A stretch of DNA of 64,000 nt from Hymenobacter lucidus (GTDB lineage Bacteria; Bacteroidota; Bacteroidia; Cytophagales; Hymenobacteraceae): contig NZ_JAJADR010000001.1 in the NCBI RefSeq assembly GCF_020447265.1, positions 1,302,001 through 1,366,000 of the forward strand, in the 5' to 3' direction. The notes beneath the pieces are model-generated. The model ran no database searches, was not told where the DNA came from, and saw only the letters and a program-made list of their open reading frames with translations. Below, one piece after another: positions 30,892-44,315 of this stretch. A program made the position numbers and the translations under genes. Positions within the stretch are counted from its first letter, which is position 1; the number at the start of each line of letters is the position of its first letter.

Positions 30892-32382
30892 ATGGGTCTG
30901 AAATCTGCGCTGAGCCGCCCGCTGGCCGCCTATATCACCCACCGCTACCAGCAGTGGCAGCAAGACCCCATAGCTACCCAGCAGCGCGTGTTCCGGCAGT
31001 TGATCGACAAAGCCAAGAACACGGCTTTCGGGCGCGACCATGACTTTGCCGGCATCCGGACGCCCGCCGACCTGGCCCGCCTGGTGCCCGTGCGCGACTA
31101 CGAGGCCCTGGCCCCGTATTTCGAGCGGGTGAAGGCCGGGGAGGCCGACGTGCTCTGGCCCGGCAAGCCCGAATACCTGGCCAAAACTTCCGGTACGACT
31201 TCCGGCGCCAAGTATATTCCGCTCACCAAAGACAGTATTCCCAACCACATCAACGGGGCCCGGGATGCCCTGTTTCACTACATCCAGCGCACCGGCAAAA
31301 GCCGCTTTCTGGACGGCAAGCTGATGTTTTTGTCGGGCTCCCCGGCGCTGGAAACCGTGCATGGCATTCATACCGGCCGGCTCTCGGGCATCGTAAATCA
31401 CCACGTGCCGGCCTACCTGCGCCGCAACCAACTGCCCACTTACCGCACCAACGTCATCGAGGACTGGGAAACCAAGCTCGACCACATCGTGGAAGAGACG
31501 CTGCCCGAAAACATGACCCTGATTTCGGGCATTCCACCCTGGGTGCAGATGTACTTCGACAAGCTGACGCAGCTGACCGGCCGGCCCGTGAAGGATATAT
31601 TCCCGCAGTTCGACCTGTTTGTGTATGGCGGCGTCAACTTCGAGCCCTACCGGGCCAAACTGTTTGAAACCATCGGCCGGCCCGTGGACAGCATCGAACT
31701 GTTTCCGGCTTCCGAGGGATTTCTGGCGTTTCAGGACGAGCCCGGCAACCCCGGCCTGCTGCTGCTCCTCGACGCGGGTATTTTCTACGAGTTCATCCCC
31801 GCCGAGCGGTTTTTCGAGCCCAACCCGCCCCGCCTGACCATCGGGGAAGTGGAGCTGGACCAGCAGTATGCGCTGGTACTCAACTCCAACGCCGGCCTCT
31901 GGGGCTACAGCCTCGGCGACACAGTGCGCTTCGTAAGCAAAGCGCCATACCGCGTGGTGGTGTCGGGGCGCATTAAGCACTTTCTGTCGGCTTTCGGCGA
32001 GCATGTCATCGGTGAGGAAGTGGAGCAAACTCTGCGCGAGGCCATGAGCCGGTTTCCGGAAGTGGAAGTGGTGGAATTCACCGTGGCCCCGCGCGTAAGC
32101 TCCGACCCACAGCAGCCAAGCCGGCACGAGTGGCTCATCGAGTTTGCCCGCCCGCCTCACGAGCCTGCCGCATTTGCCGCCGCCCTCGACGCGGGCCTGC
32201 GCCGCCGCAACGTGTACTACGACGATCTGCTGACCGGCAACATCCTGGCCCCATTGCAGCTCACGGCGCTACCGGCCGGCGCGTTTCAGCGCTATATGAA
32301 AAGCCTGGGCAAGCTCGGCGGGCAGAACAAGGTACCCAGGCTGAGCAACGATAGGGGTATTGCGGAGGGGTTGTTACGTTAA
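30892..32382 (+). CDS. GH3 auxin-responsive-promoter family acyl-adenylating enzyme
   Basis: 496 residues from the ATG at 30892 (MGLKSALSRPLAAYITHRY). The longer open frame overlaps the previous gene and is rejected. The protein matches the GH3 family of ANL adenylating enzymes: the ATP-loop LAKTSGTTSGAKYIPLT near residue 100, YGGVNFEPY, EGFLAFQ, and SLGDTVRFVS followed by GRIKHFLSAFGEH. Plant GH3 enzymes join amino acids to acyl acids such as auxin and jasmonate. Bacterial members are widespread and uncharacterised. The substrate is unknown. The frame antisense to it is long but is a GC-codon artefact. Confidence 0.9.
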   Translation: MGLKSALSRPLAAYITHRYQQWQQDPIATQQRVFRQLIDKAKNTAFGRDHDFAGIRTPADLARLVPVRDYEALAPYFERVKAGEADVLWPGKPEYLAKTSGTTSGAKYIPLTKDSIPNHINGARDALFHYIQRTGKSRFLDGKLMFLSGSPALETVHGIHTGRLSGIVNHHVPAYLRRNQLPTYRTNVIEDWETKLDHIVEETLPENMTLISGIPPWVQMYFDKLTQLTGRPVKDIFPQFDLFVYGGVNFEPYRAKLFETIGRPVDSIELFPASEGFLAFQDEPGNPGLLLLLDAGIFYEFIPAERFFEPNPPRLTIGEVELDQQYALVLNSNAGLWGYSLGDTVRFVSKAPYRVVVSGRIKHFLSAFGEHVIGEEVEQTLREAMSRFPEVEVVEFTVAPRVSSDPQQPSRHEWLIEFARPPHEPAAFAAALDAGLRRRNVYYDDLLTGNILAPLQLTALPAGAFQRYMKSLGKLGGQNKVPRLSNDRGIAEGLLR

Positions 32383-33849: not shown

Positions 33850-35583
33850 ATGAATCTTGATGTTGCCGTTATCGGTGGGGGAGTGTCGGGGGCGTACTGT
33901 GCCTGGCGCTTGCAGCAGGAAAAGGCTGGCAAAGCCCGCGTCGCCTTGTTTGAGTACAGCAACCGCATCGGGGGGCGGCTGTATTCGGTTACCATTCCCG
34001 GGATGCCCCACGTGAAGGCCGAAGTGGGCGGTATGCGCTACATTCCCGACTCGCACGTGACGGTAGCCAACCTGATTGACCACTTGGGCTTGCCCACCCA
34101 AAACTTTCCGATGGGTGCGCCCGCGCCGGTGGGAGCCAACTGCAACCTGTATTATCTACGTGGCAAGCACCTGCGCCTGCACGAGCTCACCGACCCGGCC
34201 AAGGTGCCCTACAACCTCTCGTGGGCCGAGCAGGGGCTAGGCCCCACCAACTTGCAGGTGCAGGTAATGAACGGCATCTACCCTGGCATGAGCGGCCTGA
34301 GCCTGAGCCAGCTGATGCAGCTCAACGCCTTCGGTAAGCCCATGTGGAAATACGGCTTCTGGAACCTAATGGCCCGCACGCTCAGCAGTGAGGGCTACCA
34401 GTTTATGAAGGATGCCGGCGGCTACGACGCCAACGTGGCCAATGCCAACGCCGTGACCCAGCTGCCCGCCACCGAATACAGCGACAAAACCGAGTTTCTG
34501 ACCCTGCGCGACGGTTACGACCAGCTGCCCATCACGCTGGCCAAGGAGTTCAACGATAAGTTTGCCGGCGCCATCCCCAAAGGCCAGCGCATTCATATGA
34601 ACCACCGGCTGGCCGAAATCATCATCGGTACCGGCGAGTACCCCTACACGCTGTACTTCGAGCCCACCGAAACCGACCAGAAGCAGTGCACGGTGGTAAA
34701 AGCCGCGGCGGAGCGCATCACGGTGCGGGCCAAAAAGGTAATTCTGGGTTTGCCTCGCCGCTCCCTGGAACTCATCAAGAGCAGCTTCTTCGAAGACCCC
34801 GAGCTGAAGAAGAACATGGGCTCAGTGCTCATTCAGAGTGCCTTCAAGCTGTTTCTGGCTTACGAGCGGCCCTGGTGGCGCGCCCTGGGGCTGGTGGCCG
34901 GCCGCTCCGTCACCGATTTGCCGGTGCGGCAGGTATTCTATTTCGGCACCGAGGCCGAGCAGCCCCACGGCCTGCCCTATATGAACTCGCTGATGATGGC
35001 CAGCTACAACGACATCAGCACCGTGCCCTTCTGGAAAGGACTGGAAAAAGGCAAGGAGTACCCCGGCTACATTCCCGCCTGCATAGAGCCCGGCGTGACG
35101 GACGTAATACCGGACATGGAGTTCCGGGCCACCGACGAGATGGTGCAGGCCGCCAACCGGCAGGTGGCCGAAGTACACGCCCTGCCCGAAATTCCGATGC
35201 CGTATTCGGCCGTGTATCACAGCTGGAACGAAGACCCCTACGGCGGCGGCTGGCACGAGTGGAAAGCTAACTACCGCCTCGACCAGATTATGCACCAGAT
35301 GCTGAAGCCCGTGGCCGACCAGGATATTCACATCGTGGGTGAGGCCTATTCCTACGACCAGGGCTGGGTGGAAGGCTCCCTCGATACGGCCGAGGCCATG
35401 CTCCAGAAGTACTTTCGGCTCGACCCACCCGCCTGGCTCGATGCCAGTGCCTACCCACTGCTGCCCGAGGCCAACCCGACGCCCACCGGCGCGGATACCC
35501 AGGCCTGCATCCCGTTTGAAGACGCTACCGACACGCTGGCCAAGATTACGCCTAGTTGCCTTGTGCCCGTGCAGCCCAGCTAA
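33850..35583 (+). CDS. Flavin amine oxidase (L-amino-acid oxidase-like)
   Basis: 577 residues from the ATG at 33850, placing the FAD-binding motif VAVIGGGVSGAYCAWRL at residues 5-21. The second dinucleotide-fold motif FEYSNRIGGRLYS follows, then GGMRYIPDSH near residue 60. The C-terminal FAD-closing segment is VGEAYSYDQGWVEGSLDTAE. This is the monoamine oxidase/L-amino-acid oxidase superfamily, which also includes tryptophan oxidases such as VioA and RebO. The product would be an imine or 2-oxo acid plus hydrogen peroxide. No signal peptide. It starts a run of nine same-strand genes and is followed after 44 bases by a 2-oxo-acid decarboxylase. Substrate not determined. Confidence 0.85.
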   Translation: MNLDVAVIGGGVSGAYCAWRLQQEKAGKARVALFEYSNRIGGRLYSVTIPGMPHVKAEVGGMRYIPDSHVTVANLIDHLGLPTQNFPMGAPAPVGANCNLYYLRGKHLRLHELTDPAKVPYNLSWAEQGLGPTNLQVQVMNGIYPGMSGLSLSQLMQLNAFGKPMWKYGFWNLMARTLSSEGYQFMKDAGGYDANVANANAVTQLPATEYSDKTEFLTLRDGYDQLPITLAKEFNDKFAGAIPKGQRIHMNHRLAEIIIGTGEYPYTLYFEPTETDQKQCTVVKAAAERITVRAKKVILGLPRRSLELIKSSFFEDPELKKNMGSVLIQSAFKLFLAYERPWWRALGLVAGRSVTDLPVRQVFYFGTEAEQPHGLPYMNSLMMASYNDISTVPFWKGLEKGKEYPGYIPACIEPGVTDVIPDMEFRATDEMVQAANRQVAEVHALPEIPMPYSAVYHSWNEDPYGGGWHEWKANYRLDQIMHQMLKPVADQDIHIVGEAYSYDQGWVEGSLDTAEAMLQKYFRLDPPAWLDASAYPLLPEANPTPTGADTQACIPFEDATDTLAKITPSCLVPVQPS

Positions 35584-35627
35584 ACCACTATTCTAAATTC
35601 AACCGCAGCTATTCTTTCAACTTCCTT

Positions 35628-37346
35628 ATGACCGTTTCCGACTACATCCTAGCCCGGCTCAAGCAGCTTGGGCTGGAACATATCTTTGCCGTGCCCGGCG
35701 ACTATGCCGGCCCTTTTCTCACGGTGCTCGACCAAACGCCCGGCATTATCCGGGTGCCCAACATCAACGAGCTGGGCTCGGGCTACGCCGCCGATGGCTA
35801 CGCCCGTTTCCGGGGCATCGGGGCCGCCTGCGTGCAGTATGGCGTGGGCACCTTCAGCCTGCTCAACTGCACGGCCGGCTCCTACGTGGAGCGGGTGCCG
35901 GTGGTGGTCATTTCGGCCAGTCCCAAAACCTCCGACCGTAAGCTGGAGCGCGAAAAAGGCATCCTGTTTCACCACAGCACCGGCAACCTGCGCGCCGACC
36001 AGCTGGTGTTTCAGAGCGTGACGGTAGCCTCCGAAATCGTGCGCGACGCCGCGGTGGCCCCCGCCCAGATTGACCGCGCCCTGACGCTGATGCTCACCCA
36101 CCAGCGCCCGGTGTACATTGAAGTGCTCAACGACGTGTGGGCCCAGGAGTGTGCCAAGCCGGTTGGAAGCTTGGCGGCCCAGCCCCCCGTCAGCGACCCG
36201 GCGGCCCTGGCGGCGGCCTTGGAAATGGCTTGGAACCGGATTCAGCAAGCCAAGCTGCCGGTGCTGTGGGCGGGCGTGGAAATTCAGCGCTACGGCCTCC
36301 AGGACACGTTGCAGAAGCTGGTGGATGTGAGCGGTATGCCCTTTACGACTACCAGCGTGGGCAAAACAGTGCTCGACGAAAGCCAGCCGCAGTTTATCGG
36401 CACCTACGCCGGCCCCGCTTCCCCGGCCCTGACGCGCGCCGTAATGGCCCAATCGGACTGCCCCATTGCCCTGGGTGCCATCATCACCGACGACTACCTC
36501 GACATCATGAAAGCCCCGTTCGGAACCATGATTGAGGTGACGGACGAGGAAACCCGCATCGGCTACCAGCACTACCCCTGCGTTACGCTCCCCGATTTTC
36601 TCCGCGGCCTGCTGGCCCGCTTCGAAGCCGCCGGCCCGAACCGGGTTTACGAGCTGCCCGTCGTAACGCCCGACGCGCAGCCGCCGCTCACCGGTCCGCT
36701 TACCTACAACACGTTCTATGGCGCGCTGAGCGGGTTTTTGCAGGCTCGGCAGCTCCTCAACGACACCGTGCTGGTGCTGGGTGAAAGTACTTCCCTGTAT
36801 GTGTTTGGCAACCTGATGGGGCTGCCGCGCAACAGCTTCGTGGCGCAGGCTGCCTGGGGCTCGTTGGGCCACGAAACGGGTTGCGCGCTGGGCGTGGCCC
36901 TGGGCAGTGGCAAGCGCCCCATCGTAGTGGCCGGCGACGGTGGCTTTATGATGGTGTGCCAGGAGTTGTCGAGCTTGGCCCGGCAGGGTTCCAACGCGGT
37001 GGTATTCGTGATGAGCAACCAAGGCTACGCCATCGAGCAGGCCTTCGTGGATATCAACGCCTTTAAACCCGGCCAGGAATTCGCCGAGTTCGACATGCTG
37101 CCGGCCTGGGACTACGGGGCCCTGGCCCAGGCGTTCCGGGTGCGCGGCTACCGCGCCGAAACCGTGGAGGAGCTACAGCGCCTGCTTCCCGAAATAATGG
37201 CTAATACGGATGTGCCCTGCTTGGTGGAAGTCGTGATACCCAAGCACGACCTGGCCCCGCAGCTGGCCCGCCTGGCTGGGGCGCCGGCCGCCACCGAGTC
37301 GCGGCAGCAGCACAAGCTGGCCCTGGCCGCTTCCCGACCCGCTTAG
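35628..37346 (+). CDS. TPP-dependent 2-oxo acid decarboxylase (pyruvate/indolepyruvate decarboxylase family)
   Basis: 572 residues from the ATG at 35628, which gives the standard start MTVSDYILARLKQLGLEHIFAVPGDY. The catalytic Glu of the cofactor site is Glu 48 (NINELGSGYAADGYAR). The His-His pair that defines the decarboxylase branch is at 115-116 (ILFHHSTGN). The TPP-Mg motif GDGGFMMVCQEL starts near 435 and ends at MSNQGY (a Q replaces the usual second N). It would convert a 2-oxo acid to an aldehyde, a fitting next step after the amine oxidase encoded just upstream. The substrate is open: pyruvate, phenylpyruvate, indolepyruvate or another. Confidence 0.88.
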   Translation: MTVSDYILARLKQLGLEHIFAVPGDYAGPFLTVLDQTPGIIRVPNINELGSGYAADGYARFRGIGAACVQYGVGTFSLLNCTAGSYVERVPVVVISASPKTSDRKLEREKGILFHHSTGNLRADQLVFQSVTVASEIVRDAAVAPAQIDRALTLMLTHQRPVYIEVLNDVWAQECAKPVGSLAAQPPVSDPAALAAALEMAWNRIQQAKLPVLWAGVEIQRYGLQDTLQKLVDVSGMPFTTTSVGKTVLDESQPQFIGTYAGPASPALTRAVMAQSDCPIALGAIITDDYLDIMKAPFGTMIEVTDEETRIGYQHYPCVTLPDFLRGLLARFEAAGPNRVYELPVVTPDAQPPLTGPLTYNTFYGALSGFLQARQLLNDTVLVLGESTSLYVFGNLMGLPRNSFVAQAAWGSLGHETGCALGVALGSGKRPIVVAGDGGFMMVCQELSSLARQGSNAVVFVMSNQGYAIEQAFVDINAFKPGQEFAEFDMLPAWDYGALAQAFRVRGYRAETVEELQRLLPEIMANTDVPCLVEVVIPKHDLAPQLARLAGAPAATESRQQHKLALAASRPA

Positions 37347-37357
37347 GCTCTGTGGTT

Positions 37358-38077
37358 ATGTCGTCGTCGACTTTCAATGGGGCTACTTTGCTCTCCTGTG
37401 CGGCCTTACCGCCGGTCGGGGTAATTCTGGTGGCCGATGCGGTTCCGCTGCTGCGGCAGGGGCTGGTGCAGGTGTTGGCGCAGGCCCATGCCGGCTACTG
37501 CCTGCTGCAGGCGGGCACTACGGCTGAATTGTTGCTGCTCACCCAGCAGCTCAGCCCCGCGCTGGTACTCACTGCCGCCGACCTGCCCGGCGCGCCGCCC
37601 CGGGCCGAAGGCCTGCTCACGGCGCTGCGGGAAATCAAGCCCGACTTGCCGGTAGTGGCGCTGACCGACCCCGTAGCCACACCCGAGCCGGACCTGCTGC
37701 GTCTGCTGCGGCACAACGTGAGTGGTCTTTTGGCGCGCTCCGCTTCCATTTCGGAAGTAAGTGAGATGGTGAGCAGCGTGCTGCAGCGGGGGCGTTTCTA
37801 CAATGAGGCCACCCTGCGGTTGCTGCAAAGCCAACTGGCAGGCCGGCCCCGGCCCGCCCGCCTGCGCACCGAGCTTTCGAATCGGCAGCTGGAGGTGTTG
37901 CAGCTTATTGCCGAGGAGTACTGCAACGAGGAAATTGCCGGCTTGCTCTCCACCAGTGTGCGTACCGTGGAATACCATCGTAGCCAGATGCTGCAGAAAA
38001 CCGGCACCCGCACCACGCTCGGATTGGTGCTGTATGCCCTGCGTCAAGGCGTGTTTGTCGATAAGGCGCTGAGCTAA
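37358..38077 (+). CDS. LuxR-family response regulator with atypical receiver
   Basis: 239 residues from the ATG at 37358. The C-terminal LuxR/NarL helix-turn-helix is clear (about residues 172-225): LSNRQLEVLQLIAEEYCNEE and LLSTSVRTVEYHRSQML. The N-terminal domain (about 18-140) has the receiver fold (VGVILVADAVPLLRQGL), but the phospho-acceptor position in LVLTAADLPG is Ala instead of Asp, and the usual late Lys is Arg (GLLARSAS). It probably works without phosphorylation. Two palindromes just behind its stop codon are the likely binding sites. It should regulate the operon beginning at 38212 and perhaps itself. Confidence 0.85.
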   Translation: MSSSTFNGATLLSCAALPPVGVILVADAVPLLRQGLVQVLAQAHAGYCLLQAGTTAELLLLTQQLSPALVLTAADLPGAPPRAEGLLTALREIKPDLPVVALTDPVATPEPDLLRLLRHNVSGLLARSASISEVSEMVSSVLQRGRFYNEATLRLLQSQLAGRPRPARLRTELSNRQLEVLQLIAEEYCNEEIAGLLSTSVRTVEYHRSQMLQKTGTRTTLGLVLYALRQGVFVDKALS

Positions 38078-38094
38078 CCGAAGCTGCTAAAATC

Positions 38095-38110
38095 CTAGTG
38101 CTGGTACTAG
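38095..38110. promoter_or_regulatory. Palindromic operator, site 1
   Basis: CTAGTGCTGGTACTAG is a near-perfect palindrome (one mismatched pair). With site 2 it repeats the consensus CTAGTGCYRGYACTA at a centre spacing of about 27 bases. It is placed just after the LuxR gene. Confidence 0.6.
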
Positions 38111-38121
38111 GACTCAAACTT

Positions 38122-38136
38122 CTAGTGCCAGCACTA
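38122..38136. promoter_or_regulatory. Palindromic operator, site 2
   Basis: CTAGTGCCAGCACTA repeats site 1 and lies 28 bases upstream of the candidate -33 element of the next promoter. Confidence 0.6.
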
Positions 38137-38163
38137 ACGCGGCGGGCCACTTTCAGTGACAGA

Positions 38164-38193
38164 TTTGTCAAGGGCTTTTCCCGCTAACCTTTC
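38164..38193 (+). promoter_or_regulatory. Promoter of the 38212 gene
   Basis: TTTG (38164-38167) is followed at 17 bases by TAACCTTTC, one base off the TAnnTTTG -7 consensus. The ATG at 38212 follows closely. The twin palindromes sit just upstream, as for an activated promoter. Confidence 0.5.
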
Positions 38194-38211
38194 TACTCTA
38201 CTTTTCCCCTC

Positions 38212-38646
38212 ATGGCTACTCCACTTACCCTTTACGTCCCCATCAAGCAGGATCAACTTTCACAGGCCGCCGCTGCATATGCCCAGGAGAACTTTGTGCA
38301 GAACGTGAAAGCCGGCCTCGACGCGTCGGGCATCGTGCACTACGCCCGCCTGTCGCTGATTCCGAACCCCTCCGGCAGCGGCACCCTGGGCATCCTGCTC
38401 GATACGGTATTCGATGGCCCCATGAATCCTTACCTCGACTACTTCTGGCAAAACGACGGCACCAAGACTGCTTTCCAGGGTATTGCCGCCATTGCTCTCC
38501 ATGCCCCTGAGCCGCCGGTAACCGACCAGACAGGCTTCGAGAACTTCATCGACAAAAATAACCTCAACAAGAAAGCCACTGACCTCTACCAGGCCTACGC
38601 GCTGACCGTCGAGATGATTGTGGGCTCACCGGAAGCGGGGGAGTAA
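38212..38646 (+). CDS. Hypothetical small protein of the redox locus
   Basis: 144 residues, soluble, no signal, no Cys. It contains a beta-strand segment (HYARLSLIPNPSGSGTLGILLD) and helical ends. I do not recognise a family. It is the first gene after the LuxR regulator and the twin palindromes, so it probably has the strongest regulated expression in the locus. An intrinsic terminator (38712-38745) lies between it and the peroxidase gene, which would make it more abundant than downstream products. The pattern of strands and its place beside DyP suggest an accessory or substrate-binding role, but that is a guess. Confidence 0.7.
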   Translation: MATPLTLYVPIKQDQLSQAAAAYAQENFVQNVKAGLDASGIVHYARLSLIPNPSGSGTLGILLDTVFDGPMNPYLDYFWQNDGTKTAFQGIAAIALHAPEPPVTDQTGFENFIDKNNLNKKATDLYQAYALTVEMIVGSPEAGE

Positions 38647-38711
38647 ACGGCCCGTTGCAACTGAGACCGGGCCGGTTTCGGCCGCTGCCCGCCGCGTTTG
38701 CCATTAGTCCG

Positions 38712-38745
38712 GAATCAGCCTGCCCGTCAGGCTGATTCTTTTTTT
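38712..38745 (+). terminator. Intrinsic terminator inside the locus
   Basis: GAATCAGCCTG (38712-38722), loop CCCGT, then CAGGCTGATTC (38728-38738) and seven T. It ends 24 bases before the peroxidase ATG, so read-through or an internal promoter is needed for the downstream genes. Confidence 0.9.
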
Positions 38746-38769
38746 GACCAGCCTTTTCGTCCGCCCTTC

Positions 38770-40305
38770 ATGACCACTGCCAGCCCTATCCCCAGTAAAG
38801 CCAATATTCAGGGCTTCATCGTCCGCGGCTACACGCACCCGTATTCCAGCCACCTGCTCTACCACTTCGGGGCGGCTGCCCAGACGGTCCCGTTCTTCAA
38901 GGCCCTCTGCGACCGGGGTATTCAGGATGCGCAGGACTGGGGGGCGAACAAGCCCGCCACCATCCTCAACCTCGGCCTGACGGCCACGGGACTGCTGCAG
39001 ACCGGCACCCTGAGCGTCCCCGACCTTCAGGACTTTCCGCCGTCCTTCCAGCAGGGGCCCGACTCCCAAGGGTCGCAGGCCTCCCTGGCCGATGTGGGCC
39101 CTAGTGCTCCGGACCAGTGGTGGTATCAGAACTTCAAGACCGAAGACCTGCACTGCATCGTGCACGTGTACGGCCTGACCGAGGCCGACCTGGCCGCGGC
39201 CGTGGGCTACGTGGCTACTGCGGCCACCGCGGCCGGCGTGACGGAGCTGTTTGCCGCCCGCGACAACAAAAGTCGCCTGAACCAGTACCCGCTGCCCGTG
39301 GATGAGATTCACTTCGGCTACCGCGATGGTATCTCCGAGCCCGCCCTGCACTGGCGCACCGACGCCACGCCCGGCCCGCTCGACTATAGCGACCTGAATA
39401 ACTTTCTGATCGGCTACCCACAATATGCCAAGCCCGGTCCCGGGCCCACCAGCCCCGGTAAGGCCGCCGACTTTGCCAAAGACGGCTGCTACAATGCCTT
39501 CCGGCTGCTGTACCAGGACGTGGCCGCCTTCAACACGCTCATCGAGTCGCAGGGAGCAGATAAGATGGAGTGGACGGCCGCCAAGCTGGTGGGCCGCTGG
39601 CGCAACGGCTCCCCGCTGATGCTGAGCCCCGACGCGCCCAGCCCGCTGACCCAGGACGCCGAGGACTTCCTCTACTATACCCCGGCCCCGGCCAACCCCG
39701 CCGACGCGGGCAATACCAGCAAGTGTCCGTTTTCGGCCCATACCCGCGTCACCAACCCGCGCGACCAGCAGATGGCGTCCTCGGAAGGCAAAACGCCGGT
39801 GCGCATTATCCGGCGCGGTGTACCCTATGGCGCGCCGCTGCCGCCCGGCTCCGCCGACGACGGCGTAGACCGTGGCCTGATCGGGCTGTTCTTCTGCGGC
39901 AACTTGGCCGCTCAGTTCGAGAAAATCAGCTCCTGGATGAACGTCAACAATTTCAGCACGAAGTTTCCGACGCCCCCGGTCCGGTCGTATCCTCAGGACG
40001 CCCTGCTTGGCAACCGCACGGTTCTTCCGAATGGAATACCTATCAATACCAGCTTTATCATCCCGCCGGCCACCCCGGGAAGCTGCCCGGTAACCACGCT
40101 CCGCAGCCTGCCCGAGCTGCTTATTACCCGCGGCTCGGCTTACCTGCTGCTGCCCAGCATCAGCTCTATCCGCCAGCTGGCGGGCCTGCCACCGCTGCCA
40201 GCGCTGCTGCGCGCCGCCAGTTCCGATACCGTATTTGGTCAGCCCCGCAAGCCCCGGCCGCTGCTGCCTATCGAAGATGACCACGTTGCCACCTCTCACT
40301 ACTAA
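38770..40305 (+). CDS. DyP-type haem peroxidase
   Basis: 511 residues from the ATG at 38770 (MTTASPIPSKANIQGFIVRGY); the longer frame would cross the terminator. The DyP motif GYRDG (residues 183-187) carries the catalytic Asp 186. The haem-ligand region is CPFSAHTRVTNPRD (319-332), with His 324 as the proximal ligand. Both are arranged as in the family, though the protein is somewhat longer than classic DyPs. There is no signal peptide. It would use hydrogen peroxide, which the upstream amine oxidase would make, to oxidise an unknown substrate. The ferritin-like gene follows after 12 bases. Confidence 0.88.
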   Translation: MTTASPIPSKANIQGFIVRGYTHPYSSHLLYHFGAAAQTVPFFKALCDRGIQDAQDWGANKPATILNLGLTATGLLQTGTLSVPDLQDFPPSFQQGPDSQGSQASLADVGPSAPDQWWYQNFKTEDLHCIVHVYGLTEADLAAAVGYVATAATAAGVTELFAARDNKSRLNQYPLPVDEIHFGYRDGISEPALHWRTDATPGPLDYSDLNNFLIGYPQYAKPGPGPTSPGKAADFAKDGCYNAFRLLYQDVAAFNTLIESQGADKMEWTAAKLVGRWRNGSPLMLSPDAPSPLTQDAEDFLYYTPAPANPADAGNTSKCPFSAHTRVTNPRDQQMASSEGKTPVRIIRRGVPYGAPLPPGSADDGVDRGLIGLFFCGNLAAQFEKISSWMNVNNFSTKFPTPPVRSYPQDALLGNRTVLPNGIPINTSFIIPPATPGSCPVTTLRSLPELLITRGSAYLLLPSISSIRQLAGLPPLPALLRAASSDTVFGQPRKPRPLLPIEDDHVATSHY

Positions 40306-40317
40306 CTCTTTCCTGCC

Positions 40318-41757
40318 ATGCCCAATCCTCTACAACTAGTCCCCAATGACCTCAAGGCCGCCATTCAGCAGGCCATTGAAGTGGAGCTCAGCACCATTCC
40401 GATTTACCTATACACTTACTATTCCATTAACCGGGTACCGAATCAGCAGGACATGATTGTCTCGCTGACCAAGCGGTATGAGCGCGAGGGTCTGAGTCCG
40501 GCCGAGGCGGCTAAAAAAGCCCAGGACGTATCGGTGCAGGTGATGGTGCACGCCAATAAGGCCGGAGCCATCATTATGAGTGTGGCCGTGGAGGAGATGC
40601 TGCACATGGGCTTGGCCTGTAACCTGAAGCGCGCCCTGGTGGGTATGCCGAAGCTGGTGGGCAAGTCGCCGGCGAAGTACCCGGCCCAGCTGCGCGGGCA
40701 CGTACCCGGTCTGTCGATTCCGCTGCGCCGCTTCGGCCTGGCCCAGCTCGACATCTTCAAGCAAATTGAGTTGCCGGCCAAGCCCGCCAAGAAGCTACTG
40801 ACGGCCGAGCCTGAGGAGCCCACCCAGGAGTGGACCTCCCTGGCTGACCTCTACGGCTGGGTCAGCAAGCAGATTACCAGCAATGTCACCCCGGTCGACT
40901 TCACCAAGTTTGCCGACTGCCCCCAGCTGGAGCCCAACCGCGACTATTACGCCACTAACAACGTTAATACGCTTTACTACGACAAGGACCACAAGCCCAA
41001 ATTCGTCAACAACGATGTGAAGCCCGGCAACCCGCACAGCGGCGGCGACCTGATCCGCATCGTGGACGTGAAAACGGCCCTGGCCGCCATCGACCTGATT
41101 GTGGAACAAGGCGAAGGACACGAAGACGAGCCCGCACCGCAGGCCACTGCCAACCGCCCCTGGAAAGGCCACGCCCACGCCGAAGCTGGCGAGCAGGCCG
41201 GTGAAGACCCCACCCAGGCTGAAAACGAGGATGACGACGCGGAAAAGTCGCACTACAAGAAGTATTGCGAGCTGCGCGACGAGCTGGCCGAGATGATCGG
41301 CGAGAAAGACGGCTCCCCGAATGCCTACATGCTCGACTACTTCGTGAAGCAGGTGCCCGACAACCCGACCACCGCCAGCTACCCCGCCGACGTGCAGACG
41401 ATGTCGAACCTGATCAACGCGGTGTATACCTACCTGTTTATGATGACTGAGGCCTGCTACCTGCACGACGTGCCGAAGCAGAGGGAAATCTTCAATTTCG
41501 GGATGCACAAGGGCATGATATTCATCCTGAGCACCCTCTGCGACCAGATGACCTACACCAAGCTGCCCGGTGGCGGCGTGGCGGCGCCCACGTTTGAGAA
41601 CTATGTGTTCCGCTCCGACAGCAGCCCCAAGGCCCAACTGCTGGAGCTCTACCACGCCATGCCGGCCAGCGTGAATCCCAACCCGAACGTGCTGGCCCGC
41701 ATGAAAACGCTGCCCGATATGGCCAACGTGACCGAGCGAGTGCTCAGCTTCGCATAA
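40318..41757 (+). CDS. Ferritin-like protein (VioB/RebD iminophenylpyruvate-dimer-synthase type)
   Basis: 479 residues. The N-terminal ~150 residues match the ferritin-like domain first described in VioB/RebD: AIEVELSTIPIYLYTYYSI (Glu 21/Glu 23) and AVEEMLHMGLACN (Glu 92/93, His 96) provide the expected di-iron ligands. A charged low-complexity linker at about residues 265-310 (many Glu, Asp, Lys) is followed by a second helical region containing LINAVYTYLFMMTEACYLHD. VioB and RebD also have a catalase-like N-terminal part, which is missing here. It is translationally close to DyP (12 bases) and the Cys-rich protein (30 bases). Reaction unknown. Confidence 0.8.
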   Translation: MPNPLQLVPNDLKAAIQQAIEVELSTIPIYLYTYYSINRVPNQQDMIVSLTKRYEREGLSPAEAAKKAQDVSVQVMVHANKAGAIIMSVAVEEMLHMGLACNLKRALVGMPKLVGKSPAKYPAQLRGHVPGLSIPLRRFGLAQLDIFKQIELPAKPAKKLLTAEPEEPTQEWTSLADLYGWVSKQITSNVTPVDFTKFADCPQLEPNRDYYATNNVNTLYYDKDHKPKFVNNDVKPGNPHSGGDLIRIVDVKTALAAIDLIVEQGEGHEDEPAPQATANRPWKGHAHAEAGEQAGEDPTQAENEDDDAEKSHYKKYCELRDELAEMIGEKDGSPNAYMLDYFVKQVPDNPTTASYPADVQTMSNLINAVYTYLFMMTEACYLHDVPKQREIFNFGMHKGMIFILSTLCDQMTYTKLPGGGVAAPTFENYVFRSDSSPKAQLLELYHAMPASVNPNPNVLARMKTLPDMANVTERVLSFA

Positions 41758-41787
41758 TCCCTTCCACCGCTTTTTGCTTTGCTACCA

Positions 41788-42378
41788 ATGGATACTCCTA
41801 ATACCACCCCGCCCGCCAACCAGGCCGGCAAAACGGGCGCTGAGAATGGCTGCGGCGCCCCGCCTACTCCCTTCGTGCCGTTGGAGCTGCACGCCTGCAT
41901 GGGCCTGAACGCCTGCCAGGGCCACGACCGGTTCGGGACCAACAGCTGCGCCGGCTCGGGCTCCTGCGCCACCACCGAGCACATCTGCCACTCGCTCAAC
42001 AACTGCCGCGGGCAGGGCGGCTGCGGCCTCTTCGGCAGTGCCGAGGAGCAGGACAAGCCCGGCATGAACGACTGCGCCTGGAAAGGCAGCTGCGCCACCC
42101 CGATTCAGGCGGAGCGCTTCAGCACCCAGGGTAGCAACAAGGGGCAAAGCGTGTGGTTGCGCGCCCGGCAGCTGTTCGAGGAGCGCCTGACCAAGGAACA
42201 CCGTGAGTTCATGCCGGCTCCCTTCCCCAAGGGCCCATCCACGAAGTGGCTGAATGAGCAGGGCCCATTCGACGGCTGCGGCTCCAGCGGCGACCCGGCC
42301 GGTACCTTCCAGAACGGTGGCAAGCCCCAGGGCGTCACCCCAGGCCAGTCGTTCCGGGCCGGCCGGAAAGAAGGCTAG
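41788..42378 (+). CDS. Cys-rich protein with five CX5C modules, candidate MNIO substrate
   Basis: 196 residues from the ATG at 41788. It has 11 cysteines, nine of them in CX5C spacing: 37/43, 54/60, 67/73/79 and 96/102, with sequences such as CMGLNAC, CAGSGSC, CHSLNNC and CRGQGGC. Cys 22 and Cys 164 stand alone. This CxGxNxC style recalls the bufferin-type precursors modified by DUF692 enzymes, and a DUF692 gene follows. Unlike bufferins it has no signal peptide and has a C-terminal extension of about 90 residues. It could also simply bind metal. It lies in the middle of a compact same-strand gene group. Confidence 0.75.
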   Translation: MDTPNTTPPANQAGKTGAENGCGAPPTPFVPLELHACMGLNACQGHDRFGTNSCAGSGSCATTEHICHSLNNCRGQGGCGLFGSAEEQDKPGMNDCAWKGSCATPIQAERFSTQGSNKGQSVWLRARQLFEERLTKEHREFMPAPFPKGPSTKWLNEQGPFDGCGSSGDPAGTFQNGGKPQGVTPGQSFRAGRKEG

Positions 42379-42434
42379 GCGCGACTCGGCGCCATAATAT
42401 CAAGCGCCGGGTCGAACAGCTTGCCCAAAAGCCT

Positions 42435-42461
42435 GTCATGCTTCGGCAAGCTTAGCATGAC
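42435..42461. repeat. Small dispersed hairpin repeat
   Basis: GTCATGCTTCGGCAAGCTT followed by AGCATGAC forms an 8-base stem. Nearly the same sequence occurs at 46637-46663. Here it lies in the 124-base gap between the Cys-rich gene and the DUF692 gene and could attenuate transcription. Confidence 0.6.
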
Positions 42462-42502
42462 GGTCTATATTGGTCGGTAATTCCCTTAACCAGAGTATTC
42501 GA

Positions 42503-43468
42503 ATGGACGCTACTTACTACCAGCAGCAGGTGCAAAAGCTGCCCAAGCTCGGCCTCGGGCTGGGTTTGCGGCACGCGCACTTCAACTACATTCTAGAGCA
42601 ATGGCCGGCGGTAGACTGGTTTGAAATCATTTCCGAAAACTTCATCGACTCCGGCGGGCGGCCCCGCTACGTACTCGACCAGCTGGCCGAGCGCTACCCG
42701 CTAGTGATGCATGGCGTGTCGTTGTCGGTGGGCAGTACCGATGCGCTGAACTTCGATTATCTGAGCCGGCTCAAACAGCTGGCCCGGGCCATTCGGTCGG
42801 CCTGGGTGAGCGACCATCTGTGCTGGACTGGGGCTATGGGCCTGAACACCCACGATTTGCTGCCCGTGCCCCTGACCGAGGAAACGCTGGCACACATCGT
42901 GGGCCGGGTGCGCGTGATTCAGGAGTTTCTGGAACGGCCCCTCATTCTGGAAAATCCCAGCACCTACCTCAGCTTCGCCCACTCCACCATTTCGGAGCCG
43001 GAGTTTTTGGCGCGGCTGGCCGAGGAAACCGGCTGCGGCCTGCTGCTCGACGTGAACAACGTGTATGTGACCTGCTTCAACAACGACCTCGACCCGCTGG
43101 CCTACATCGACGCGCTGCCCGCCGACCGTATCGTGCAGATGCACCTGGCCGGGCACCAGCACTGCGGCACCCACATCATCGACACCCACGACCGGGAAGT
43201 TTTGTCGCCGGTGTGGGCTTTGTTTCAGCGGGCCTGGCAGCGCACCGGCGGCGTGGCTACGCTATTGGAGTGGGACAGCCAGATTCCGCCCTTCCCTGAG
43301 TATCACGCCGAGCTGCTCAAGGCCCGGCAGTTTATGAACGAGCTGCCGCCGGCGCTGACCGCGCGGCCGGTGGTGGAGGCCGAAACGGGCGTGGTATCCA
43401 ATCCGCTGAGCTTTCTGACGCCCGGTATCATGACTGAAGAGCCGATAATTGCTTCTTCGCGTGGCTGA
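42503..43468 (+). CDS. DUF692 enzyme (MNIO, multinuclear non-haem iron oxidative enzyme)
   Basis: 321 residues from the ATG at 42503. The TIM-barrel metal motifs of the MbnB/TglH/BufB family are all visible: HGVSLSVG (His 70), SDHLCW (Asp 104, His 105), ENPSTYL (Glu 150, Asn 151), LLLDVNNVYV (Asp 183, Asn 185), QMHLAGHQH (His 214, His 218), IDTHDREV (Asp 227, His 229) and LLEWD (Glu 256, Asp 258). Such enzymes bind two or three irons and oxidise cysteines in peptides with O2, making thiazole, thiooxazole or related groups. The partner gene overlaps its stop codon and the Cys-rich candidate substrate lies just upstream. Confidence 0.93.
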   Translation: MDATYYQQQVQKLPKLGLGLGLRHAHFNYILEQWPAVDWFEIISENFIDSGGRPRYVLDQLAERYPLVMHGVSLSVGSTDALNFDYLSRLKQLARAIRSAWVSDHLCWTGAMGLNTHDLLPVPLTEETLAHIVGRVRVIQEFLERPLILENPSTYLSFAHSTISEPEFLARLAEETGCGLLLDVNNVYVTCFNNDLDPLAYIDALPADRIVQMHLAGHQHCGTHIIDTHDREVLSPVWALFQRAWQRTGGVATLLEWDSQIPPFPEYHAELLKARQFMNELPPALTARPVVEAETGVVSNPLSFLTPGIMTEEPIIASSRG

Positions 43469-44315
43469 GTCGGCGTTTACCCTGGCGCAGGTGCAGCACT
43501 GGATGCAAACGGTGCTGACAGATTCGGCCGGGCTGGGCGCGGCCATGCGCGGCGCGGCGGCCCAGGCGGTGCTGCCGCTGCAGCCCGCCGATATCGAGCA
43601 GCTCATTGCGCCTTCGAGCCGCATGAGCGGCGGGCAGCGGCTGGCAGTGTACCAGCGCGGCTACTTTGCCCGGCTGCTGGAGTGCATGGCCGGGCAGTTT
43701 CGGGTGCTGAAACAGGCGCTGGGCGAGGAGCTGTTCGAGGATTTTGCCCGCGAATACCTGGCCGTATATCCATCTGAAACTTATACCCTGGGCGAGCTGG
43801 GGGCACGTTTCGCGCAGTTTCTGGCCGAAACCCGCCCCGACCTTGACGCCCCGCCGGAAGAGCGCGAAGCCTGGCCCGACTTCATGATTGACCTGGCCCG
43901 GCTGGAGCGCGCCGCCTTCGTAGTTTTCGACGCGCCCGGCAGTGAACAACAACCGGCAGTGGATTGGTCAGCGGTGGCCGACGCGGCGCTGCGGCTGGCT
44001 CCGGGCTGCGAGCTGCTCCGCTTCCGCTACCCCGTGAATGGCTACTACCAGGCCGTGTACCGGGGCGAAAACCCGCCGCTGCCGCCGGCTCAACTCAACT
44101 TTTTGGCCATTACCCGCGTGAATTTCCAGTTGGTAATGTTCGAGCTGCAGCCGCTGCAGTTTCAGTTTTTGCAGCAGCTACAGCAGGGTCGCACCGTGCA
44201 GGAGGCCGTGGCAATGCTGGCTACACAGCTGGAAATGGGGCAGGTGCCGGCCGAGGTGCTGTGGCGGATATGGCGGGCAAAATGGCTGCCACGGGGCTTT
44301 TTTGTAGCCAGTTAA
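43461..44315 (+). CDS. DUF2063 protein, MNIO partner (substrate-recruiting)
   Basis: 284 residues from a GTG at 43461; a TTG at 43449 would add four. The frame overlaps the DUF692 stop by eight bases, so translation is coupled. The N-terminal ~110 residues form the helical DUF2063 domain (LQPADIEQLIAPSSRMSGGQ and LAVYQRGYFARLLECM). The C-terminal part resembles the MbnC-like partner that presents the peptide to the DUF692 enzyme. It contains DFMIDLARLERAAFVVFDAP. It ends the gene run; a minus-strand gene begins 18 bases later. Confidence 0.88.
   Translation: MAESAFTLAQVQHWMQTVLTDSAGLGAAMRGAAAQAVLPLQPADIEQLIAPSSRMSGGQRLAVYQRGYFARLLECMAGQFRVLKQALGEELFEDFAREYLAVYPSETYTLGELGARFAQFLAETRPDLDAPPEEREAWPDFMIDLARLERAAFVVFDAPGSEQQPAVDWSAVADAALRLAPGCELLRFRYPVNGYYQAVYRGENPPLPPAQLNFLAITRVNFQLVMFELQPLQFQFLQQLQQGRTVQEAVAMLATQLEMGQVPAEVLWRIWRAKWLPRGFFVAS

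Follow-up and report, generated by a model that had tools for sequence, protein, structure and literature searches.

Do nine adjacent genes of Hymenobacter lucidus form one biochemical system, and what would that system make? The window analyzed is a stretch of 64,000 nucleotides (GCF_020447265.1, NZ_JAJADR010000001.1, positions 1,302,001-1,366,000, forward strand). A first interpretation, made from the letters only (the sequence-only reading), placed nine same-strand genes at 33850-44315. Nine open frames, all on the + strand, do fill this interval (Table 1), and profile or motif matches bear out the families assigned to them. The locus was taken for a single nine-gene system. Instead, it is a core of four genes plus two interchangeable modules. 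The core encodes a ferritin-like protein (FerL, containing PF12902), a cysteine-rich protein (CysR), a multinuclear non-haem iron oxidative enzyme (MNIO) and its DUF2063 partner (PME). One module pairs a flavin amino-acid oxidase (AOx) with a 2-oxo-acid decarboxylase (TPP), and the other consists of a LuxR-type regulator, a small protein (SU4) and a probable DyP-type peroxidase. We propose, with a probability of roughly 0.5, that FerL and CysR jointly form an intracellular redox protein, which MNIO and PME would mature. As the sequence-only reading supposed, the combination with an MNIO cassette appears to be undescribed: judged by titles and abstract openings, papers that pair MNIO or DUF692 with ferritin terms do not report the cassette, and no PF12902 protein with an MNIO cassette was found in the portions of the literature available.

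The four-gene core across bacteria

To define the core, we scanned 84,980 species, each represented by a single genome, using an alignment of 23 CysR relatives as the only query. This yielded 183 pattern matches and 168 confirmed loci, of which the best 80 were examined; the set is biased to near relatives because the best-scoring loci were kept. MNIO is present in 80 of the 80 CysR-seeded loci, FerL in 79 and PME in 78. All missing genes fall at contig ends (locus L091 begins just before CysR, and L037 and L071 end in MNIO), and the genes that are present follow the order FerL, CysR, MNIO, PME on a single strand in every locus. A tree of MNIO proteins with 85 rows (78 of the 80 loci, leaving out L037 and L071, plus the window and six further genomes) includes Bacteroidota (47), Pseudomonadota (26), Acidobacteriota (4), one Actinomycetota bin and seven untitled rows.

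The reverse search starts from FerL. Full-length relatives (E < 1e-60) occur in 5 of 296 Bacteroidota genomes and in 5 of 200 genomes of the family. These amount to 8 distinct genomes, and all 8 carry the entire cassette; two are probably already among the 80 loci (G481 corresponds to L016 and G099 to L062). Of the weaker PF12902 matches, the one in G301 is accompanied by both CysR and MNIO; neither is present in the 14-18 kb mapped for G365, G210 and the second copy in G166.

The DUF2063 domain (PF09836) was detected in 78 of 78 scanned PMEs. These were drawn from 85 PME frames in L016 onward, with six of unusual length and those of L099 and L101 left unscanned, and they include the window and two near-certain duplicates (L097 = L016, L098 = L062). 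In the window the PME gene overlaps the MNIO gene by 8 bases; we took GTG at 43461 as its start, in an open frame that extends back to 43449.

The core often stands alone, since 47 of the 80 loci have no same-strand open frame chained within 300 bases upstream of it. Apart from AOx, TPP, DyP and a haem-binding-barrel-like protein, no partner recurring over several lineages was seen in the 80 loci, and each cluster of non-core neighbors occurs in 12 loci at most. An attempt to read a function from the neighbors of standalone cores gave no recurrent theme.

Table 1. Genes of the locus, with positions in the window
Gene	Product	Part of locus	Position	Strand	Matches and motifs
AOx	Flavin amino-acid oxidase, L-arginine-oxidase-like	Accessory module 1	33850..35583	+	PF01593 85.7 bits
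TPP	2-oxo-acid decarboxylase, indolepyruvate/pyruvate decarboxylase type	Accessory module 1	35628..37346	+	PF02776, PF00205, PF02775
LuxR	Response-regulator-like transcription factor	Accessory module 2	37352..38077	+	PF00196 44.4 bits
SU4	Small protein	Accessory module 2	38212..38646	+	Matches no family
DyP	DyP-type haem peroxidase	Accessory module 2	38770..40305	+	TIGR01413 62.6 bits, GxxDG, HxRxxNPR
FerL	Ferritin-like protein, 479 aa	Core	40318..41757	+	PF12902 124 bits (cut-off 22.3)
CysR	Predicted MNIO substrate, 196 aa	Core	41788..42378	+	Five CX5C motifs
MNIO	Multinuclear non-haem iron oxidative enzyme, BufB type	Core	42503..43468	+	PF05114 357 bits
PME	DUF2063 partner (PME-type 1)	Core	43461..44315	+	PF09836 65 bits

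CysR, FerL and their fusions

CysR is among the most conserved proteins of the core. All 81 aligned proteins share ten invariant cysteines, and the window protein has 11 in total. Mean pairwise identity over 3003 pairs is 0.611 for the CysR core, 0.620 for MNIO, 0.437 for FerL and 0.403 for PME; CysR identity lies above that of FerL in 2992 pairs and above that of MNIO in 1329. This high identity indicates strong constraint, unlike what is expected of a diversifying product peptide. A search restricted to 0.55-1.75 of the query length found 530 relatives at E 0.001, and the best 120 of these have 11-21 cysteines and 153-276 residues. Signal peptides were judged by hydropathy only, the threshold being an 11-residue mean above 1.6 within the first 40 residues. 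The start lies below it in 118 of these 120 relatives and reaches it in two (the window protein has 1.19).

In seven of the 80 loci FerL and CysR are encoded, in that order, in a single open frame (L064, L076, L079, L080, L081, L083 and L093). The L081 fusion is from Collimonas humicola and the other six loci are from bins. A divergent eighth fusion (L104; FerL 164 bits, CysR 61 bits) occurs in G301, from another genus of the same family as the window, and is followed by MNIO (432 bits) and PME (157 bits). A quick MNIO tree requires at least 5 state changes to account for the fusion; the corresponding minima for AOx, DyP and the haem-binding neighbor are 4, 3 and 8. These counts are rough, since good support is limited to 28 of the 82 inner branches and L104 sits on a long branch.

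In FerL, nine residues (E23, E92, E93, H96, E151, E266, E309, H312 and H397) are the same in 78 or more of the 80 proteins aligned. Two ExxH motifs with further glutamates are typical of di-iron ferritin-like proteins, and we predict from the alignment that E23, E93xxH96 and E309xxH312, together with E151/E266/H397, are the di-iron ligands. The best fold match of the modeled L081 fusion is 3hl1, a Caulobacter protein titled 'ferritin like' (E 1.5e-6). By sequence, only chance-level matches to FerL and CysR were found among solved structures.

The accessory modules and other neighbors

The closest PDB relative of AOx is PT-AROD, an L-arginine oxidase (8t8a/8jt7; E 2e-216 over residues 3-568 of 577). 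The AOx loop ATEYS (207-211), Q329 and E470 align, counted by hand, with ATEYS, Gln350 and Glu493 of PT-AROD. In the part of the PT-AROD study available, which concerns Pseudomonas sp. TPU 7192, the loop is described as a lid and the two residues as ones probed by mutation, so that AOx shares near full-length homology, the lid loop and both mutated residues with this enzyme (PMC11694665). The oxidases found at core loci fall into three types relative to the window: type A (the window's own AOx, with L018 at 71% identity and L096 at 91%), type B (about 36% over 199 residues; nearest PDB entries 7x7i-k) and type C (21%). Papers found for 7x7i-k seem unrelated to these entries, to judge from their titles. 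The AROD-type motifs are present in the AOx of the window, L018 and L096 and absent from types B and C, and these other oxidase types replace the AROD-like AOx at other core loci.

TPP matches indolepyruvate decarboxylase models best (TIGR03393 294.7 bits, below the cut-off of 946), and its closest structure is 8zk6 (E 3e-70). Its score with the model for 5-guanidino-2-oxopentanoate decarboxylase is just 147.9 bits (cut-off 500), so an arginine route is likely for AOx but is not specifically backed by TPP. Identity to the window TPP is 69-86% for the partners of type A oxidases, 48% for type B, 32% for type C and 51% for L017, a gammaproteobacterial bin in which a TPP gene lies with a berberine-bridge-type flavin oxidase beside the core.

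Eight of the 80 loci, all from Flavobacterium, have a strong AOx relative together with TPP beside the core (6 upstream, 2 downstream); weak AOx-like genes away from the core were left out (80 bits in L025, 23 bits in L034 and a second one of 84 bits in L095). G174 and G202 have further AOx-TPP pairs upstream of the core. Among the 200 family genomes, close relatives (at least 76% identity) of AOx occur in three, close FerL relatives in five and both in two, where they are adjacent.

The sequence-only reading would have counted it as adverse if the AOx-TPP half and the DyP-MNIO half were found apart with no preferential co-occurrence. The halves are indeed separable: G365 (L126) has AOx-TPP without the core and no close FerL was found in it, and H. 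persicinus (L016/L097) has LuxR-SU4-DyP and the core without AOx-TPP (no AOx match at 1e-30 genome-wide). However, preferential co-occurrence is seen: AOx and FerL lie next to each other in the two family genomes that have close relatives of both, and oxidase-decarboxylase pairs are found beside the core in Flavobacterium as well. G166 has AOx-TPP and the core without LuxR-SU4-DyP, and no DyP match at 1e-10 genome-wide. In Hymenobacter the modules stand directly upstream of FerL, both in the window and one each in G166 and H. persicinus.

The proposed likeness to violacein and rebeccamycin chemistry is not supported. VioA/VioB and RebO/RebD resemble the locus in combining an amino-acid oxidase with a PF12902-containing protein. 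However, AOx scores 89.7 bits with the VioA model (cut-off 600) and FerL 19.8 bits with the VioB model (cut-off 1250), and we know of no MNIO or CysR in those pathways.

In the second module, the receiver-like domain of LuxR falls below the cut-off of Response_reg (24.6 versus 30.2 bits). It has TAADLPG at what we take to be the position where the receiver family expects the phospho-Asp loop, and the domain may not be phosphorylated. SU4 has no match in Pfam, NCBIfam, PHROGs or PADLOC, and among mapped loci its only relative is in L016/L097 (one species). DyP is below the TIGR01413 cut-off (100.5 bits) and has no Pfam match; it contains GYRDG at 183 and HTRVTNPR at 324 and matches PDB DyPs at E 6e-28. 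A DyP relative also lies upstream of the core on the opposite strand in L070 (4366-7941) and L087 (Sphingomonas), near a protein that resembles SU4 by eye and that the SU4 profile search missed.

A haem-binding-barrel-like protein is encoded near the core in 12 of the 80 loci, and also in L099 and L100. When three were scanned against PF08768, two matched below the cut-off and one did not match. In L127 (5755-10720; G488) a relative of this protein, a 638-aa protein and an amine oxidase are consecutive, without FerL.

PF12902 proteins beyond the cassette also lie near oxidase genes. One directly follows a GMC oxidoreductase in L105 (6644-11723), L130 (4002-7092) and L133 (4352-7005), and another is one gene from an amine oxidase in L103. 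A profile search did not find CysR or MNIO in L103, L105 or L106, and, by annotation only, neither was seen in L130-L133. In fungi, PF12902 genes are reported near lodA-like genes; this likewise places PF12902 near an amino-acid oxidase gene, although LodA-like quinoprotein oxidases are a different family and 'DUF692' is absent from the main text of that paper, as far as it was available (PMC4417212). Given these oxidase neighbors, our best guess for the wider PF12902 family is an oxidase partner.

Several single arrangements of this family are recorded here. In L103 (2749-7552; G365) an amine oxidase, a 633-aa protein and a canonical PF12902 protein are consecutive, possibly an oxidase-ferritin pathway, and in L105 there is also a protein weakly related to the haem-binding barrel protein. 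On plasmids of Aureibacter (L131) and Mycetohabitans (L132) the PF12902 gene follows that of a large uncharacterized protein at the edge of ebo genes, and by eye L106 (5379-11261; G166) has a similar arrangement.

About 1.5 kb upstream of AOx, the window encodes a GH3-family protein (30892-32382, + strand; PF03321 129.8 bits). Plant GH3 enzymes conjugate amino acids to auxin. No RNA element was found in the window by Rfam at gathering scores, and no tRNA by ARAGORN. A defense-system origin was considered and set aside (the single PADLOC match for 8 proteins is weak, AOx scoring 23.6 bits with a flavin model named as a desaturase), as was a phage origin (PHROGs matched none of three proteins scanned). 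Plasmid carriage was likewise set aside: among 72,556 plasmid records, CysR has no match at 1e-5 and FerL has matches in 76, all below 60% identity.

Proposed function and competing explanations

At this locus, amino-acid oxidation, 2-oxo acid decarboxylation and O2-dependent cysteine modification are all plausible. We suggest that MNIO and PME would oxidize CysR cysteines into metal-binding groups, which by analogy may be heterocycles of the bufferin kind, and that FerL is a putative di-iron oxidase or oxygenase. The cassette would thus mature a working protein, not a secreted peptide. AOx is expected to oxidize L-arginine (or another amino acid), yielding a 2-oxo acid along with ammonia and H2O2. 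From this 2-oxo acid TPP would form an aldehyde by decarboxylation, and the peroxide would be used by DyP, so that the flanking modules may feed or protect FerL-CysR. The aldehyde, imine or peroxide that AOx and TPP would produce are candidate substrates of FerL-CysR.

We favor an intracellular redox protein because of the fixed gene order, the fusions, the invariant cysteines, the conserved Glu and His residues and the DUF2063 partner. The constraint on CysR, its start unlike a signal peptide, the 47 standalone cores and the PF12902 proteins near oxidases are counted on the same side.

Other observations weigh against this proposal. Neither a strong AOx relative nor a TPP relative is next to the core in 71 of the 80 loci, so the proposed feeder is optional. 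That varied oxidases are each paired with a decarboxylase beside this one core speaks for a functional link, an argument weakened by this absence and by the fact that the eight AOx loci belong to one genus. As the AROD residues are lacking in the type B and C oxidases of Flavobacterium, arginine is not a common substrate. Most AOx relatives may occur outside the cassette: when contigs from the best 120 of each list were matched by length, 3 of 63 AOx contigs above 8 kb were also FerL or CysR contigs. This method misses most true links, because it recovered only 17 of 79 FerL contigs among CysR contigs, although these two genes are almost invariably linked. AlphaFold2 (AF2) leaves the cysteine-rich part unstructured in its models, as would be the case for a free peptide substrate. 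No confident CysR fold was obtained: the window protein has a mean pLDDT of 56 (below 50 at residues 28-77, block means of 79-87 over 111-160), and the L081 fusion has a mean of 74.5, with FerL mostly confident and the cysteine-rich part mostly below 60. Borosins are a case of an enzyme carrying its own substrate, and by analogy the FerL-CysR fusion could be such an enzyme.

The main rival, which we consider unlikely though a serious contender, is that CysR, once modified by MNIO and PME, buffers metal inside the cell as a bufferin-like peptide, perhaps an adjamnio-I, and that FerL handles iron or copper alongside it and is otherwise non-catalytic. Bufferin clusters (BufA1/BufA2-BufB-BufC, NF050166/NF050167) resemble the cassette in having a cysteine-rich protein, a BufB-type MNIO and a DUF2063 partner in the same order. 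The window MNIO passes the BufB cut-off (NF050167, 351.9 bits versus 310), CysR shares a C-x-G-x-N-x-C motif with bufferins, and the BufA2 model matches 22 of the 23 aligned CysR relatives weakly (E at most 0.01). However, the window CysR reaches just 23 bits with that model (cut-off 60) and has an extra conserved C-terminal region. FerL stands in front wherever the contig reaches, or is fused to CysR. No BufA2 protein exceeds the cut-off in 148 Bacteroidota genomes, that of the window included, which left no true bufferins of this phylum as a comparison set. CysR also lacks a signal-peptide-like start by hydropathy, whereas bufferins are said, in the available part of an MNIO survey, to act in the periplasm (PMC12452194).

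The same sections describe putative adjamnio-I precursors of 122-293 residues with 8-21 cysteines. CysR fits these ranges and is likewise rich in cysteine, without a signal peptide by hydropathy and encoded directly before MNIO. Adjamnio-I is listed with PME-type 2, in contrast to the DUF2063 partner found throughout here. CysR and adjamnio-I may be the same proteins, compared by description only (PMC12452194). The words 'ferritin' and 'peroxidase' are absent from the main text of that paper, as far as available, and within the literature searched the name 'adjamnio' occurs there only. The survey also reports, in the part available, that precursors with signal peptides pair with DUF2063 (PME-type 1) and those without do not (PMC12452194), and the cassette would be an exception to this correlation.

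We regard it as improbable that FerL is a second tailoring enzyme acting on CysR, with a released natural-product peptide as the outcome. Ferritin-like VioB/RebD enzymes do belong to natural-product pathways, oxidase genes are nearby and FerL precedes CysR wherever a contig carries both. However, no recurrent protease or exporter was seen in the 80 loci (most neighbors were not assigned to a family), and the core sequence is frozen over phyla. Least probable, and largely refuted, is one dedicated pathway of all nine genes, since tight co-directional spacing (gaps of 44, 5, 134, 123, 12, 30, 124 and -8 bases, in order) and modules that each recur beside the core are set against G166 and H. persicinus with one module each, G365 with AOx-TPP and no core, and a full set found only in the window among mapped loci.

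Returning to the redox-protein proposal, we advance more tentatively, at somewhat less than even odds, that the MNIO pair builds a cysteine-derived cofactor within CysR, which would be a lasting subunit or domain of a ferritin-like oxidase in the cytoplasm, in at least three phyla. Most of what is known of MNIO chemistry comes from small peptides that are exported or bear a leader. A likely substrate that is fused to a ferritin-like enzyme, starts unlike a signal peptide and keeps its cysteines invariant over phyla would point to MNIO-made cofactors in enzymes, and the fused gene makes the idea directly testable with a single protein and two helpers. If true, FerL-CysR would be a new enzyme class with a protein-derived metal site made post-translationally, and MNIOs would serve not only secreted metallophores.

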